Source: a virus
Reading direction: 5' to 3' (one strand)
DNA length: 36,791 nucleotides
Virus record (IMG/VR): IMGVR_UViG_3300003635_000012
Span: 1 to 36,791 of that record
The notes under the pieces were generated by a model. The model had not been told where the DNA came from, searched no databases, and saw only the letters and a program-made list of their open reading frames with translations. Position numbers and translations under genes: made by a program. Shown one piece after another: positions 5,715 through 21,710 of this stretch (position 1 is the first letter of the stretch; every line of letters begins with the position of its first letter).

Positions 5715-6460
5715 GCCCTACGTCGGACGCCGTATAGGGTGCTGGCGTCACTCTTGGTTTCTTTCGTCAGGATTTCAGACGCGCTCTTTCGAGTCATGCC
5801 AAAAATCGGCCCAATCTTCACGGGGCTATACTCTCGGCAGAGGACCATGATACTCCGCGCGATCTTACGTCTTGACTCTCTGTTTAACTCCCTGATATTA
5901 ATACCCCATTCTTGTGTTTCTCCCGTTCCGATATGGTGGCCGTCTGGATACCCAAGCCGGTTGCTAATCCCTGTGGCCGTGTGTCCATGCTGATAGGCGT
6001 CAATGACAATATCGCGGCGGTTCTTTAACAGCTCCAACTCGGTTTTCTTTCGCATGATTTTCGTGCAATTCTCGTTGTGTTCTTGGTGGTGTGCTGGTTG
6101 TTTCTCACCTTCGCTAAATTGCTGTCGGAGAACGGGAATCCCACACCCACACCGTACCACAACATCGGAGTAATGCTGTGCATGGACGTAGTTTGGATTC
6201 ACCCACTTTTGCCGCGCACCACTCAAGATTAGATCCGGTGCCCGCCACGCGCCGGTTAGTTTCACGACCCCATCGGGAATGTTCGACAGTTTCAAATCTA
6301 ACTCATGGAGTGTGAACGTCGCTCTCGTCTTAGGTAGGTTTTCAACGTGGTTTCTGATTTCTAACGCGGTTTCTACATGACCGTCTAAGAAGCTATGCCA
6401 CTCCGAATCATCCTTGGGGAACGATACGGGATCGTCTAAGCGACTGGTTTGGGTTGGCAT
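5711..6460 (-). CDS. Zinc- and HTH-containing protein, 249 aa
   Basis: The middle has a Cys-Gly-Cys followed by HHQEHNENC (about residues 103-131), a likely zinc site. After it come two helix-turn-helix-like stretches: RDIVIDAYQHGHTATGISNRLGY and VKIGPIFGMTRKSASEIL. Such HTH-rich proteins may be DNA-binding regulators or recombination accessories. It starts at ATG 6460, overlapping the Hjc stop by one base (TAATG), so it is coupled to the resolvase. Confidence 0.7.
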   Translation of the reverse strand: MPTQTSRLDDPVSFPKDDSEWHSFLDGHVETALEIRNHVENLPKTRATFTLHELDLKLSNIPDGVVKLTGAWRAPDLILSGARQKWVNPNYVHAQHYSDVVVRCGCGIPVLRQQFSEGEKQPAHHQEHNENCTKIMRKKTELELLKNRRDIVIDAYQHGHTATGISNRLGYPDGHHIGTGETQEWGINIRELNRESRRKIARSIMVLCREYSPVKIGPIFGMTRKSASEILTKETKSDASTLYGVRRRA

Positions 6461-6861
6461 TATCCAAACACCCGTTGGATGCTTTCACACCGCTCATGGT
6501 CTTGCTTTCGGACACTATACCCCTTTTCGGTTTCATGGAGTTGGCTTGTGTGCATGACTAACCAGTGGTCAAAACTCCGTAGGTCGGGCTTGACTGCAAT
6601 GTAGGGTTCAACCCCGGCCTTAGTCGCCCACCGCTCTAGCGCGTCTATCTCGTCACTTGTGAACGTCACAGTTCCATCCGGTCGCTTCTTAATCTCGACA
6701 GCAAAGCCAACGTCCGGTTCCATCTTCCCTGCCCGGAGAGCGACGGCGTCGGGGCGTTCTCTTTGTGTTCGCCCACCGCTACCCGGCGCTCGAAGGCAGC
6801 CATATCCATAGTCGTCGCTCAAGATATTGATGAACTCGCGTTCTACGTCGCTACCCGTCAA
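6460..6861 (-). CDS. hjc: Hjc-type Holliday junction resolvase, 133 aa
   Basis: Hjc cleaves four-way junctions during recombination or before packaging of branched viral DNA. The family pattern is clear: VEREFINIL near residue 6, the APGSGG loop near 25, PDAVAL with the catalytic Asp near 37, FAVEIKK (ExK) near 53, and PYIAVKPD near 86. Length matches archaeal Hjc. The start is TTG 6861; no ATG or GTG fits. It overlaps the 30-aa membrane-protein gene upstream by 11 bp. Together with the PD-(D/E)XK-like neighbour it forms a recombination cluster. Confidence 0.85.
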   Translation of the reverse strand: MTGSDVEREFINILSDDYGYGCLRAPGSGGRTQRERPDAVALRAGKMEPDVGFAVEIKKRPDGTVTFTSDEIDALERWATKAGVEPYIAVKPDLRSFDHWLVMHTSQLHETEKGYSVRKQDHERCESIQRVFG

Positions 6862-6943
6862 GGTACCACCATAGCCCCGCGCCGATGAGTACGATCATGG
6901 ATAGGTACACTACCCCGGCGAGTAGGGTTGTCTCTGTGTTCAT
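6851..6943 (-). CDS. Single-pass membrane microprotein, 30 aa
   Basis: ATG 6941..6943 overlaps the upstream stop as ATGA, and the stop lies 11 bp inside the Hjc gene. The product is almost entirely one hydrophobic helix (LLAGVVYLSMIVLIGAGLWWYL) with a short hydrophilic end. Translational coupling on both sides argues that it is real. It could be a membrane effector or merely a spacer peptide that carries ribosomes to hjc. Confidence 0.6.
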   Translation of the reverse strand: MNTETTLLAGVVYLSMIVLIGAGLWWYLDG

Positions 6944-7344
6944 GGTTCTAGACCGAGTTGATCCGCTACCCATGCGACGGCTTCAAACCTATCTTTCGGG
7001 AGATTGTTGATGTTGATTAGGCAGAGTTCATCAAGCGGAGTGCTTAGTACGTACCGCTCTAACTTACTCTCTTTCACCTCTGCCGTAGGGCTATGCTCCA
7101 ACTCGACAGCGTAACTAAGCCGGTCGGGGTGGCCGAATAACACTACGTCAATCTCGCCCTTGGGACACCGCACTTCCGATGAAACGCGGTATCCGTTCGT
7201 AACCCCAAGGTGGCCCACGATGACCTTAGCGAGTACGTGTGTACTGGTTTCACTACCTGAATTGAACTCTATTGAATTGGTCTTGTCTACCTCTACGGAC
7301 CAATCTTTTAACTCGCGGTATTCCGAAAGCTGGTTCGGGTTCAT
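6940..7344 (-). CDS. PD-(D/E)XK nuclease-like protein, 134 aa
   Basis: Start at ATG 7344, overlapping the zinc-ribbon gene by 4 bp; the longer frame to 7488 would be an internal overlap. The central PKGEIDVVLFG...YAVELEHS gives an Asp on one strand and ExE on the next, spaced like the PD-(D/E)XK fold, followed by helix KESKLERYV. This fold covers restriction enzymes and resolvases. With Hjc next door, a DNA-processing role is plausible, but the Lys of the motif is replaced by Glu. Confidence 0.55.
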   Translation of the reverse strand: MNPNQLSEYRELKDWSVEVDKTNSIEFNSGSETSTHVLAKVIVGHLGVTNGYRVSSEVRCPKGEIDVVLFGHPDRLSYAVELEHSPTAEVKESKLERYVLSTPLDELCLININNLPKDRFEAVAWVADQLGLEP

Positions 7345-11323: not shown

Positions 11324-12241
11324 ATGTCGCCACGGTATGAACGGTTGTCTGATGAGGCTTGGCTACGCGAAAAATATGTTGGAGAGGGTCTATCACAGTC
11401 GGATATTGCTGAAATGGTGGGTTGTACACAGACTGCTGTATCCAATCGCATACGGCAATTTGACATTGACACGCGGGATCACAAATACCCGGAGTTAAAC
11501 AACCCTCAATGGCTTAGCGAACAGCACCACTCGGAAAATAGGGGTTTGGCCGATATAGCTAATGAGGTGGGCTGTACACGCTCTGCCGTTGGATATGCAA
11601 TGAGGCGGAACGATATTGAGGTGCGAAGAAACACGCTTGTTCATGAGGTAGACGGACGCCTCACCGATAGGCAGAGAGAAATCATAGAAGGCGAGTTATT
11701 AGGAGATGGCTGTATTCCCAAGCCACGCGCCAATGCGGGTGCAAAGTTCACATATGGTACCTCTCGAAAACGCTACCGAGATTGGTTGCGTGACTTGCTA
11801 GAGAACATAGGATTTGAAACCCGTTCGTATGAGTATACCCAAGACGATGATCGGGATGGGTGGTCAAAGACAGAGACATATCGGCTTGAAACTCTTGTCC
11901 ATTTTGAATTGAGTGATTTTCGCAAGCGGTGGTATCCAGAGGGTGAGAAGATCATCCCACCAGACTTTGAACTATCGCCCCTTAGCCTTCGGCATTTGCA
12001 TATCGGGGACGGTTGTTTTGATGAGGGTAATTACTCAATATACCTGTACACAGACGGGTTTGAAACGGATTCGTTAGCCCGTCTACAGTCGGAACTCCGG
12101 GAGAAGGCTGGCGTGAAATCATCAATAACGCACCGTGGAAGCTTGCATATCCAGAAGGCACAATCCCGACAGAGGTACTTTGATTATATTGCGCCACTCC
12201 CGCCGGAATTGGAAAGTGTCTACGGTTACAAGTGGCCGTAA
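11324..12241 (+). CDS. LAGLIDADG homing endonuclease with double HTH, 305 aa
   Basis: Residues 10-85 hold two helix-turn-helix repeats (GLSQSDIAEMVGCTQTAVSN and RGLADIANEVGCTRSAVGYA). Two LAGLIDADG-like helices follow, EIIEGELLGDGCI near 120 and LRHLHIGDGCF near 220, each ending in the catalytic acid. This gives a monomeric enzyme of usual size. It is free-standing 26 bp after terL, not inside an intein or visible intron. Codon use looks more AT-rich than the terminase, consistent with recent arrival. Confidence 0.9.
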   Translation: MSPRYERLSDEAWLREKYVGEGLSQSDIAEMVGCTQTAVSNRIRQFDIDTRDHKYPELNNPQWLSEQHHSENRGLADIANEVGCTRSAVGYAMRRNDIEVRRNTLVHEVDGRLTDRQREIIEGELLGDGCIPKPRANAGAKFTYGTSRKRYRDWLRDLLENIGFETRSYEYTQDDDRDGWSKTETYRLETLVHFELSDFRKRWYPEGEKIIPPDFELSPLSLRHLHIGDGCFDEGNYSIYLYTDGFETDSLARLQSELREKAGVKSSITHRGSLHIQKAQSRQRYFDYIAPLPPELESVYGYKWP

Positions 12242-13818: not shown

Positions 13819-15753
13819 ATGGGACTATTCGGTACATCAAAGACGTTGCTTTCTACGTGGGCAGAGACTAAGAAGCGACAACTACAGAACCGTGGCACGC
13901 CGGACACTCGCGTCGACAGTGGCGGCACCCGAGACAACTACACCTTTGACGGGCAAGAACTATCCCGTTCGGACCTACGGGAAATCAAGCACATCCGAGA
14001 ATCTGGCGGCTTTGTCTCACAGTTAGTACACGGCAAAGCCCTAATGCAGTTCGGGATGGGCGCTACTTTCGAGTGCGAAAACGACGAAGCGGGCGAGTGG
14101 CTTCTTGACCAATTCGGGGATCTTGATAACCTCCTAATCGACATAGGCGAAGACGCTACGTGGTTCCCTTACGCTCTCGGTGAAATCGTAGAGACACAAG
14201 GCGGGGATTTCTCCCATCTTGAGCTTATTGAACCGTGGACGATGCTCCCCATTGAGAACGAACACGGGGAGATAATCGCGTGGGAACAGGAAATCAAAGG
14301 CGACTTTGAGAGTATTACAGAGACGTTTGAACCCGACGAGATAGCTACCTTTGTTCTCAATAAGGCATACGGTCGGGACAAGACAGGCGTCTCGGAAGTC
14401 AAGCGGGCAGAGGATGAAATCAGGAACTACAAGGAAAACCAGAAGACTATCAACGAGGCTCTTGAGTACCTGATTCCGCATAATCACTGGAAAGTCGGGA
14501 AAGAAGGGGGCGCGGTCATTGACGATAACGAACTCAAGAGGGTTCGGAACAAGATCAACGACATGAGCGGGGACACCCAAGTCATTACCGGGCATGACGT
14601 TGACCAAGAGGCGATTGAACTCCCGACGTTTGACGTGCAAACGATTACGGATAACGACGTTCGGCAACTCTGTGTTGCGCTCGGTGTCCCGATTGAGTTA
14701 GCGTCTGTTATCTCTGAGGGGCTTGGATCGGGCGAACAGAGTAACGCCCGAGAGATGTTTTTCCAATTAGAGCGGAGAGCGAAACAGCGGGCGCTTGGCG
14801 GGCAGTTTATCGAACAGGTGGCGCGTATCCTCCTACGCGATTACTCGCCGTATGACGCCGAGCAACAGCTTGATTTGGTCTTTGACGAGACGCAACAGGT
14901 GTCCGAACGGAAGGCTATCGTTGACGCCGTTGGGGACGATATGACTGTCAACGAGCGGAGAGAGTTGTTTGACATGGCTCCGCTGGATAACGAGGAAATC
15001 GGAGAAGACTTTGAGCGCCCGGCGAAGGATTCGGGCGACGATATGGGCGGACTGTTCGCAGAGGGTGATACGGATTTTAGGGGCCTTGCGGACGGTATGG
15101 CAGAGTGGGAACAGACGTTTCTAGAACTCCATGAGCGGACGCACAACGCCGACAAAGAAAGAAACCTTTTGGAGTTCGGGACGGATAACCAAGTCCCCGA
15201 GTTCGTAAAGAACCGACTCAGAGACGCGATTTGGTCGGAAGGTGTCTTCTCCGATATTGAAAGCATTGACTCTAGCGACCGGATGCAACTTCAAGAGTTC
15301 CTAACCGAGAGTCTGACTAGCGACCGCTGGAGCATTGACGGGATCGCGGATCAAATCGAACAGTTGGGCGTAGACTCTGATATGGCCGAGACTATCGCCC
15401 GGACGGAAACCCACGAACTCGTAGCCGACGCGCGGGAAATGGGCTACGAGGAACGCGGCGATATGGAGGGTGAATTGTTCTATTGGACGGGCGACACAGG
15501 CGACAGAACTACCGATACGTGCAAGTATCTCATAGAGGGCACCAACGCGGACCTAGATAATCCGGGCGCGTTTAGCAGTCTGGATAGGCCGGACGGGACG
15601 AATCCGCTCCGGGGCGGTGAACCCATGCCGATAGATGAGCTAAAGGCACATCTGAAAGAGGTAGCCAAGGCCGATCCACAGTTGAACACCAAGCCCCGAG
15701 AGTGGACGCCCCATATCAACTGTAGAAAGACGTTTGTTCGACACGTCGAGTAA
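13819..15753 (+). CDS. Portal protein fused to MuF-like head protein, 644 aa
   Basis: The portal is the dodecameric DNA channel of the head. Residues about 40-400 match portals in order and composition (FVSQLVHGKALMQFGMG; PIELASVISEGLGSGEQSNA; an ARDYSPY-like segment). Residues about 520-644 resemble the Mu F/SPP1 gp7 minor head protein: ETIARTETHELVADAREMGY, then WTGDTGDRTTDTCKYL and a final HINCRKTF. In most phages these are two genes. A promoter box lies just upstream. Confidence in portal is high and in the MuF part good. Confidence 0.88.
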   Translation: MGLFGTSKTLLSTWAETKKRQLQNRGTPDTRVDSGGTRDNYTFDGQELSRSDLREIKHIRESGGFVSQLVHGKALMQFGMGATFECENDEAGEWLLDQFGDLDNLLIDIGEDATWFPYALGEIVETQGGDFSHLELIEPWTMLPIENEHGEIIAWEQEIKGDFESITETFEPDEIATFVLNKAYGRDKTGVSEVKRAEDEIRNYKENQKTINEALEYLIPHNHWKVGKEGGAVIDDNELKRVRNKINDMSGDTQVITGHDVDQEAIELPTFDVQTITDNDVRQLCVALGVPIELASVISEGLGSGEQSNAREMFFQLERRAKQRALGGQFIEQVARILLRDYSPYDAEQQLDLVFDETQQVSERKAIVDAVGDDMTVNERRELFDMAPLDNEEIGEDFERPAKDSGDDMGGLFAEGDTDFRGLADGMAEWEQTFLELHERTHNADKERNLLEFGTDNQVPEFVKNRLRDAIWSEGVFSDIESIDSSDRMQLQEFLTESLTSDRWSIDGIADQIEQLGVDSDMAETIARTETHELVADAREMGYEERGDMEGELFYWTGDTGDRTTDTCKYLIEGTNADLDNPGAFSSLDRPDGTNPLRGGEPMPIDELKAHLKEVAKADPQLNTKPREWTPHINCRKTFVRHVE

Positions 15754-15788: not shown

Positions 15789-16235
15789 ATGCCACGATCA
15801 TATGGCATGGGCAAACGGGTAGTTCTAATCCAGTGTACCGACGCGAAACGAGACGAGAAAGCACCGGCCAAGGACCTATACGATGAAAGTTCGTTCTTCC
15901 GAGCGCAGAAAGGCTATGCCAAAGCCAAACACCGTGACTATAAAATCCTAAGCGGGAAGCACGGCCTTGTCGATCCCGAGACAGTGCTTGAACCCTATGA
16001 TGCAATGGGGCTATCCGAGTCACAGTGCGTTGAAATAGCGGAGGAACTAGCCGAGTCGGGGTATACCTACGCCGAGATCGTAGCGGGCGACAAAGAGTAT
16101 GCTAACCCGCTTACGCCGGAGTTAGAGAAGCGTGGTATGACAGTCGTGACTAACTTTAGCGGGCTACGAATTGGAGAGCGTGAGAAACAGCTTAATATCG
16201 AACGGCGAAAACTCATGAATCAACAGTTATGCTAA
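15789..16235 (+). CDS. DUF6884-like protein, 148 aa
   Basis: The N-terminal core VVLIQCTDAKRDEKAPAKDLY, a helix (FFRAQKGYAKAK) and ILSGKHGLVDPETVLEPYD match the DUF6884 pattern: a Cys-containing strand, a Lys/Asp loop, then the conserved (L)S(G/A)KHGL and final PYD. From memory these domains often occur near 7-deazaguanine or tRNA-guanine-transglycosylase-like genes; here the next gene is one and overlaps by 7 bp. It is probably a partner in base modification. An alternative start is ATG 15807. Confidence 0.75.
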   Translation: MPRSYGMGKRVVLIQCTDAKRDEKAPAKDLYDESSFFRAQKGYAKAKHRDYKILSGKHGLVDPETVLEPYDAMGLSESQCVEIAEELAESGYTYAEIVAGDKEYANPLTPELEKRGMTVVTNFSGLRIGEREKQLNIERRKLMNQQLC

Positions 16236-16975
16236 GAGACGAGTACCTTCGCCGGTTGGTCGACGGGGCACACATTGAGTTATATCTGAGTGCGAACGAC
16301 GGGGCACGCCTCTATTGGCCGTGGCGGATGCAACCACCGAAAGAAGCCACGCGGAGTTATCGAAACTCATGTGAGAAGTACATCATAGATAGCGACCCGT
16401 TAGACGACGACGTGACCGCGACGGACGTGTTGGATATGGCCTTCAAGCTAGACGCCGAAGTTGCCTCTCTCCAAGACGTATATCTCGACAAAGATGCAAC
16501 CGTTGGATCCCTCTCTCACGGCTTAGAAGTCGCAGACGATCACCCGTTTGACGGTGAGTTACTCCTACCGCTCCAAGAGCCATATGTAGAGTGTTGGCAG
16601 GAACTTGGAGAGCCTACAGACCACCTCTTAGGAATCGGTGGGCTGAAAGACAGCACGCCTAAGAAACGCCTCAAAGCGACGATAGAGTTGCGCCAAGCAG
16701 TCGGGGAAGACGTTTGGATACATGGCTTCGGGTGGGGTATTGACGGCCTTGCGGAGCATATCCGTTCCTCTCCGAGATTGTTAGACTCGGTGGATTACTC
16801 GACACCGATGCAAGACGCGGCTACTGACTCATGCACACCGGGGAAAGAGCGGATGAGCGTGGCGGCAATGGGCGCGGCCAAACGGCTAGTTCGTGACCTT
16901 CGGGAAGTCTCGGAGTATCCGCGAGACGCTACGCCAGAGGACTTACGCGAAGACGATCAGGCGGCACTCATATAG
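16229..16975 (+). CDS. DpdA-like tRNA-guanine transglycosylase family protein, 248 aa
   Basis: TGT enzymes swap guanine for a 7-deazaguanine base; DpdA relatives do this in DNA. TGT landmarks appear in order: YIIDSD near 52 (the IDSGGF position), LLPLQEP near 112, GIGGLKD at 135-141, IHGFG at 164-168 and LLDSVDYSTP at 184-193, whose Asp could be the nucleophile. It is much shorter than tRNA TGT and lacks an RNA-binding PUA domain, which favours a DNA role. No preQ0 synthesis genes are present; a haloarchaeal host makes preQ0 for archaeosine. Catalytic residues need alignment. Confidence 0.75.
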   Translation: MLRDEYLRRLVDGAHIELYLSANDGARLYWPWRMQPPKEATRSYRNSCEKYIIDSDPLDDDVTATDVLDMAFKLDAEVASLQDVYLDKDATVGSLSHGLEVADDHPFDGELLLPLQEPYVECWQELGEPTDHLLGIGGLKDSTPKKRLKATIELRQAVGEDVWIHGFGWGIDGLAEHIRSSPRLLDSVDYSTPMQDAATDSCTPGKERMSVAAMGAAKRLVRDLREVSEYPRDATPEDLREDDQAALI

Positions 16976-21106: not shown

Positions 21107-21120
21107 CCAAACCGCTTAGT
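21104..21120 (+). promoter_or_regulatory. Late-type promoter box
   Basis: TAGCCAAACCGCTTAGT ends 23 bases before ATG 21144. An identical 17-mer is found at 23145..23161. The first three bases are the stop codon of the antitoxin-like gene. Confidence 0.75.
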
Positions 21121-21143
21121 ACGTCACTGTTCTATTCGGTGGT

Positions 21144-21335
21144 ATGAGTCTTGAAGACGAGATACAGACTGTGGACGGCGTAGGGCCAAAGACCGCCGAG
21201 AAGGTCATTGCTATCGTGGAAGCAAATGAAACCGACTCACAGGCCCAAGAGCTTGTCGAGATGGCTCTTGCAGAGTTGGACGAGGGTCGGCCCGGCTACG
21301 CTCGGAAGTATCTTGAGCGAGTTGGTAACAACTAA
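21144..21335 (+). CDS. Helix-hairpin-helix protein, 63 aa
   Basis: IQTVDGVGPKTAEKVIAIVE is a clear helix-hairpin-helix, which grips the DNA backbone without sequence preference. A second helical pair follows (LVEMALAELDEGRPGYARKYLERV). Leaderless promoter directly upstream; the structured RNA region begins right after its stop. Confidence 0.75.
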   Translation: MSLEDEIQTVDGVGPKTAEKVIAIVEANETDSQAQELVEMALAELDEGRPGYARKYLERVGNN

Positions 21336-21690
21336 GTGGCTGGCAAGTATACACCCACTTGGTTCAGGACGGGTGCCGTGCCTGTCTTTTGCGGGCCACA
21401 TGGGTGTACCGCGCGGAATGAACTGAGCGGAGGGATGGCCGGAGTTGGGGGACGCCCCGATCGCCCACACGGGCAAAGCGGTAACGCACAAGGCACTGCC
21501 CCTCTGTAAAGAAAAGCGCGGAATCGGGTTCAAATCCCGATTGGTCCATGCCCGATAAGGCGAGAGAAGGGTAATGACTTCGCCAACCCGTGAAAAGCGG
21601 GAGAGTAGCCGGATGGGAACCCGACTCTTGCACGGGCATCTCTGTATGCTACGACGTGCCGGGCACTCGCCCACACGTTTTCACATTCCC
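21336..21690 (+). ncRNA. Highly structured non-coding RNA region with a tRNA T-arm
   Basis: This 355-base gap has no plausible gene but many perfect stems: TACACCCA 21350..21357 with TGGGTGTA 21401..21408; hairpin 21365..21384; GGGG/CCCC 21448..21458; GCCC/GGGC 21463..21474; GCG-GTAA-CGC 21478..21487 with a GNRA loop. A canonical tRNA T-arm follows (TCGGG 21524, TTCAAAT 21529..21535, CCCGA to 21540) with an acceptor-like TTGGTCC and discriminator A at 21548. Next, ATGCCCG 21548..21554 pairs with CGGGCAT 21633..21639 around two inner hairpins. No partner GGACCAA for a full tRNA was found. It is read with the upstream late promoter or on its own. Confidence 0.7.
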
Positions 21691-21693
21691 GAG

Positions 21694-21710
21694 TAGGCAA
21701 ACCACTTAGT
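21694..21710 (+). promoter_or_regulatory. Late-type promoter box
   Basis: TAGGCAAACCACTTAGT ends 22 bases before ATG 21733. Here TAG is not the end of any gene, so it belongs to the box itself. Confidence 0.75.

Follow-up and report, generated by a model that had tools for sequence, protein, structure and literature searches.

The window analysed here, a 36,791-nt stretch of viral DNA, contains a closed tRNA-like RNA of 156 nt (positions 21393-21548) that represents a new RNA family, a variant of the t-elements. Its recurrence in an unrelated virus and on two plasmids of archaea shows it to be real and under selection. Our preferred reading, to which we assign a probability of about 0.65, takes it for an enlarged form of the haloarchaeal t-element, a mobile non-coding RNA associated with viruses, which would be excised by host enzymes and act in trans through its inner domain.

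The element lies in a gap bounded upstream by the stop codon (21335) of a gene for a 63-aa helix-hairpin-helix (HHH) protein, 21144-21335, and downstream by a promoter-like motif at 21699. A sequence-only reading of this DNA had described the gap as free of genes, and we likewise find no convincing gene in it. It had also placed the gap between two promoters, which fits the occurrence of the motif AAACCRCTTAGT at 21109, 21699 and 23150, each time ∼35 nt before an ATG. The T-arm, the acceptor TTGGTCC with its discriminator A, the GNRA-capped hairpin and a downstream 92-nt element with a 7-bp closing stem, all reported there, were confirmed at the positions listed below. The same reading had found no 5′ partner for the acceptor strand; the partner of TTGGTCC-A is GGGCCAC at 21393-21399, 155 nt upstream. 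The sequence taken there for a D-arm, GCAAAGCGGTAACGCAC, forms the conserved GNRA hairpin within the inner domain, and the part upstream of the element, supposed to be structured, gives a non-significant fold score (z -0.8 for 21336-21398). The features are as follows.

21109-21124, + strand: promoter-like motif AAACCGCTTAGTACGT preceding the HHH gene; the RNA would be part of the transcript of this gene
21393-21548, + strand: whole tRNA-like RNA (family A), matched by covariance model R1; homologues at L002 (HATV-3), L164 and L165
Before G21393 and after A21548, + strand: predicted RNase P site and predicted tRNase Z site, respectively
21393-21398, + strand: acceptor stem, 5′ strand GGGCCA, pairing with TGGTCC at 21542-21547 (alignment A1, pair counts)
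21400-21408, + strand: D-loop mimic ATGGGTGTA, 9 nt, without a D-stem, GG invariant (alignment A1; compare the linker GG of mini t-elements)
21409-21414, + strand: P2, 5′ strand CCGCGC, partner GCGCGG at 21516-21521; compensatory changes in 5 of 6 pairs
21416-21427, + strand: 5′ side of the conserved internal loop, GAATGAACTGAG; all four homologues share GAATSAACYGAG
21428-21434, + strand: P3, 5′ strand CGGAGGG, partner CCCTCTG at 21500-21506; compensatory changes in 5 of 7 pairs
21438-21440, + strand: P4, 5′ strand GCC, partner GGC at 21492-21494
21445-21460, + strand: P5 hairpin TTGGGG-GACG-CCCCGA (inspection of the four loci)
21478-21487, + strand: GNRA-capped hairpin GCG-GTAA-CGC; GNRA loop in all four (GTAA, GCAA, GCGA, GCGA)
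21507-21515, + strand: 3′ side of the internal loop, TAAAGAAAA, opposite GAATGAACTGAG; TGAAGAAAC-like in the other homologues
21516-21521, + strand: P2, 3′ strand
21524-21540, + strand: T-arm TCGGG-TTCAAAT-CCCGA
21542-21548, + strand: acceptor 3′ strand TGGTCC and discriminator A
21548-21639, + strand: structured element of 92 nt downstream of the RNA, with ATGCCCG/CGGGCAT as closing stem (fold z -3.41)

From its 5′ end, the RNA runs through one strand of a 6-bp acceptor stem, ATGGNNGTN with no D-stem, a 6-bp helix P2, the conserved GAATSAACYGAG, a 7-bp P3, a 3-bp P4 and a set of hairpins, one of them with a GNRA loop. It then returns through P4 and P3 to the sequence GTGAAGARAM, the second strand of P2, the T-arm, the acceptor and A73. 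The conserved inner domain (P2-P3-P4 and the hairpins) amounts to over 100 nt and is inserted between the D-loop and the T-arm, the position of the P2 helix in tmRNA. The P5 loop GACG is present in both plasmid copies, and a longer hairpin takes its place in HATV-3. The 92-nt downstream element shares base 21548 with the tRNA-like RNA; a blastn search of phages returned no match to it.

Homologues of the RNA were found by blastn in Haloarcula tailed virus 3 (HATV-3), on a Halorussus vallis plasmid and on the Halobaculum CBA1158 plasmid pCBA1158-3, with identities of 57-74% among the four sequences. Both plasmid copies are unannotated. The window itself is a virus record related to the haloarchaeal tailed viruses BLv36, HRTV-4, HRTV-29 and HFTV1, with which its major capsid protein is 38-48% identical. 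HATV-3 belongs to a family, the Pyrstoviridae, other than that of the window's nearest relatives. With two plasmids among its carriers as well, the RNA therefore moves between unrelated elements.

In HATV-3, the RNA is overlapped by the annotated ORF gp21 (L002 3001-3297), whose start is annotated ahead of the RNA; translation probably begins instead at the in-frame ATG 1 nt past the predicted 3′ end of the RNA. A coding explanation was considered and rejected: gp21 and a minus-strand ORF of the window (21237-21674) both cross the RNA, yet no frame is open in all four homologues.

The fold is supported by strong covariation. All 28 proposed pairs are kept in all four sequences (112/112 pair cells are standard), and 16 of them show compensatory, double changes; none of 500 shuffles reached any of these measures. 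Sliding the alignment by one column lowers pairing from 100% to under 50%. RNAalifold, given the alignment alone, predicted 37 pairs, 18 of them changed on both sides, in the same helices; the 28-pair structure is a conservative version of this prediction. The consensus energy of the four homologues is -50.2 kcal/mol, compared to -15.3 ± 3.3 kcal/mol for column-shuffled alignments (z -10.6). By itself, the 156-nt element of the window already takes this fold, and it folds better than 199 of 200 shuffles, although the z-score is modest (-2.84). The sequence-only reading had named a lack of compensatory changes in homologous viruses as grounds for refuting its claim; the homologues do show such changes, and neither ARAGORN, even in intron mode, nor any Rfam family recognises the RNA. 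Its description as a structured RNA not reported before, which has a real tRNA T-arm yet falls short of a full tRNA, is thus supported.

We then searched for further members. A covariance model (R1) built from the four sequences, the window among them, scores all of them at 160-167 bits by construction (167.5 bits for the window). When R1 was run on other halovirus genomes lacking a blastn match, nothing convincing was found. The interval of BLv36 that corresponds to the window RNA is a 200-nt gap (L122 8894-9093) which folds slightly better than shuffles; the RNA is absent from it, and an unfiltered R1 run there gave noise. Pattern scans of viral contigs revealed no homologue beyond HATV-3: the conserved T-arm 27-mer had no match, GGGCCACATGGGTG alone and GGGTGT...GAATGAACTGA each gave chance matches and HATV-3 only, and relaxed patterns gave chance matches in L186 and L236 plus HATV-3. 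An exact-pattern scan of the genome collection produced a single chance match, in a Lachnospiraceae MAG. Relatives sought in viral contigs by two neighbouring proteins of the window were not found. Nor did any protein co-occur with the RNA in all four carriers, based on searches for DpdA and RtcB and a comparison of ORFs from the window and pCBA1158-3.

Some neighbouring genes were recorded along the way. Plasmid pCBA1158-3 encodes DpdA and a HerA-like ATPase. In the window, ORF 16229-16975 is 75% identical to an HRTV-29 protein annotated as DpdA, and the Pfam DpdA model has no match to this ORF. The window also carries homing-endonuclease-like genes, LAGLIDADG and HNH, at 11324-12241 and 541-1035.

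The closest known counterparts are the t-elements of haloarchaea. In Haloferax volcanii, 5S rRNA, for example, is preceded by such a tRNA-like element (Hoelzle et al. 2008, 2012, cited by PMC4326828), and t-elements are cut in vivo by both RNase P and tRNase Z (PMC4326828). An acceptor stem and a T-arm with a tRNA-type T-loop are present in all four homologues of the 156-nt RNA. It too is predicted to be a tRNA-like element within a longer haloarchaeal transcript, and the same enzymes would act on both of its ends. It differs in that it has a conserved inner domain of >100 nt, is borne by viruses and plasmids and occurs in arrays, and in that its cleavage is a prediction. Its P2-P4 domain, conserved in four genomes, takes it beyond minimal size and makes it a variant rather than a plain t-element, if minimal size belongs to the published definition.

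Because t-elements are processed in this way by established haloarchaeal enzymology, the 156-nt RNA is probably excised from viral transcripts by host RNase P and tRNase Z as well. In a transcript starting at the HHH gene, RNase P would cut before G21393 and tRNase Z after A21548. These cuts would free an RNA of ∼156 nt from the flanking mRNA, to which CCA could be added. The freed RNA might be stable, with its inner domain acting in trans, and a protein or another partner might bind during infection to the invariant sequences of the inner loop, GAATSAACYGAG and the GTGAAGARAM that faces it; we hold these last two steps less firmly. One caveat here is that archaeal RNase P and tRNase Z may be intolerant of an elbow that lacks a D-stem, although t-elements suggest tolerance.

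Much smaller elements of ∼40 nt, which reduce the shell of the 156-nt RNA to an acceptor stem, a GG-containing loop and a T-arm, also occur between genes. A scan for a T-arm and acceptor closed within 33-48 nt identified 19 such places in 16 halovirus and plasmid genomes, compared to 0-3 (mean ∼1.4) in 20 shuffles; these are places rather than independent elements, five on the H. vallis plasmid being duplicates or weak. The matches in HSTV-1, which lies inside a CDS, and in HHTV-1, which is weak, are probably due to chance. Pairing was a search criterion, so the shuffle control serves as the test; pair counts on the MAFFT alignment of the minis (A3) were not used, as the 5′ acceptor is one column off in several rows. 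The mini of BLv36 fills its gap exactly, with the preceding gene ending at 14356, the mini at 14357-14395 and the following gene starting at 14395. Minis between co-directional genes are also seen in HRTV-4, HFTV1, HCTV-2 and HHTV-2. Discriminators vary among them. The D-loop of a tRNA needs GG to dock on the T-loop, and the linker GG is present in 11/11 aligned minis (random expectation 2.7; maximum 8 in 2000 draws); the GG of the 156-nt RNA occupies the matching place, before P2. These mini-elements between halovirus and plasmid genes are probable viral t-elements. Their places include the following.

L174, 14357-14395: mini t-element
L176, 9742-9780: mini t-element
L181, 15058-15098: mini t-element
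L184, 5171-5210 and 16146-16186: mini t-elements
L183, 13297-13337 (+ strand) and 6920-6959 (- strand): mini t-elements
L187, 37665-37706 (- strand): mini t-element

On the H. vallis plasmid, a mini (76146-76186), an element B (76190-76368), an element C (76372-76542) and the homologue of the 156-nt RNA (76545-76687) stand in tandem, separated by spacers of 3, 3 and 2 nt. Such head-to-tail packing is as expected if the end of each element is a processing site. On pCBA1158-3, element B is likewise followed by the homologue of the 156-nt RNA. Element B (L184 16190-16368; L183 6597-6769, minus strand) is a second large tRNA-like RNA, common to the two plasmids, whose shell is that of the 156-nt RNA but whose inner domain differs: it begins with an acceptor and GG-loop and ends with a T-arm, and between these lie the complementary invariant blocks GCGCGAC and GTCGCG. 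Element C (L164 5829-5999) and HFTV1 6434-6552 (L180) have canonical D- and T-arms and a large insertion at the anticodon arm; both are positive with the Rfam tRNA model, the HFTV1 one passing its threshold, and both are scored as intron-bearing tRNAs. An RNA-seq study of HFTV1 counts one putative tRNA among the profiled viral genes (PMC12542753), and HFTV1 6434-6552, unannotated in its record, may be this 'putative tRNA'.

The main rival to action in trans is a role in cis only, in which the RNA does no more than mark the sites where polycistronic viral mRNA is processed and cut, and the inner domain is passive. In its favour, minis lacking any inner domain are present between genes. The predicted cut in HATV-3 would leave T-ATG, so that the downstream mRNA would be almost leaderless, its ATG following 1 nt after the cut; in BLv36, the discriminator A of the mini falls within the ATG annotated for the downstream gene. 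However, the inner domain is kept in both structure and unpaired sequence over four distant genomes, beyond the needs of a passive insert, and the next gene of the window has a promoter motif of its own. On balance, we consider pure punctuation unlikely. Improbable, to our minds, is an aminoacylated tRNA mimic or decoy, acting for instance against a tRNA-directed host defence or as a synthetase sink. The acceptor and T-arm do form a minihelix with A73, and G3·U70, the classic alanine identity pair, is present as the third acceptor pair in the window and HATV-3, which suggests alanine charging. Both plasmid copies instead have G3-C70, which argues against it; the RNA also lacks an anticodon arm, and the discriminators of the minis are varied.

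The remaining alternatives fare worse. An archaeal-virus tmRNA for trans-translation would account for a layout resembling the tRNA-like domain of tmRNA (acceptor, stemless D-loop, P2, T-arm), with G3·U70 in two of the four sequences, but we give this reading almost no weight: no sense or tag frame is open in all four, the pairing is explained without a pseudoknot, ARAGORN in tmRNA mode reports 0 genes and the Rfam tmRNA model has no match in the window. SmpB and tmRNA are not known to occur in archaea. It is very improbable that the sequence is an attP site, a tRNA gene 3′ end retained for insertion at a host tRNA gene, the interpretation given to the tRNA-like gene of HF2 (PMC8707807). A tyrosine integrase gene does lie beside the H. 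vallis plasmid array; in the window record, though, integrase PF00589 is absent (control genomes were positive), the 5′ acceptor strand and the covarying inner domain would serve no purpose in an att site, and several elements with different ends stand in tandem. Hardly tenable is the view that it is a tRNA pseudogene or an ordinary tRNA interrupted by a large intron. The two wider-class elements scored as intron-bearing tRNAs (HFTV1 6434-6552 and H. vallis 76372-76542) speak for it. Yet ARAGORN finds no tRNA in the 156-nt element whether introns are allowed or not, the Rfam tRNA score is 12.7 bits against a cut-off of 29 with the wrong pairing, and there is neither a D-stem nor an anticodon stem-loop. 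Among the options in the sequence-only reading, a heavily interrupted tRNA comes closest in geometry, except that the interruption is a conserved domain replacing the D-stem and anticodon arm. A permuted tRNA is excluded by the normal order of parts, 5′ acceptor first and T-arm last, and an intron-like ribozyme or a packaging RNA found no support.

Comparison with other known systems places the RNA apart from each of them. Like tmRNA (RF00023), it has a stemless D-loop, P2 in place of the anticodon arm, a T-arm and sometimes G3·U70; unlike tmRNA, it is without a tag frame or pseudoknot ring, is about half the size, has an unrelated inner domain and comes from a host domain with no known SmpB. 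In eukaryotes, the tRNA-like fold of mascRNA/menRNA and of the herpesvirus TMER RNAs allows an RNA to be cut out of a longer transcript by tRNA-processing enzymes, the same use of a tRNA-like fold as predicted for the 156-nt RNA. These RNAs have no sequence relation to it (Rfam mascRNA-menRNA 12.4 bits, cut-off 42.5), and its inner domain is another one. HrrHF2_450 of HF2 is also a tRNA-like sequence in a haloarchaeal tailed virus (PMC8707807), but it is a low-scoring tRNA that matches host tRNA genes and lies beside an integrase, whereas the window has no integrase and a full closed fold. The literature covered on tRNA-like elements in haloviruses and archaeal viruses, a set to which most subscription journals do not belong, describes attP-type remnants and host t-elements and nothing comparable.

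A bolder reading, less likely than not, is that this RNA founds a class of archaeal viral RNAs in which the tRNA shell is a reusable cassette: host tRNA enzymes would set the ends, CCA and perhaps an amino acid would be added, and swapped inner domains at the anticodon position would give activities in trans, such as that of a tmRNA-like ribosome agent or a counter-defence RNA. Hardly any structured non-coding RNAs have been described from archaeal tailed viruses. This one has a strongly covarying fold, is present in HATV-3, which is an isolated virus, as well as on two plasmids of archaea, and is open to immediate testing. Gene control via tRNA-processing enzymes has no report for archaeal viruses in the literature searched; together with the minis, the 156-nt RNA suggests that haloarchaeal viruses use these host enzymes to cut their own mRNAs and to make stable RNAs.
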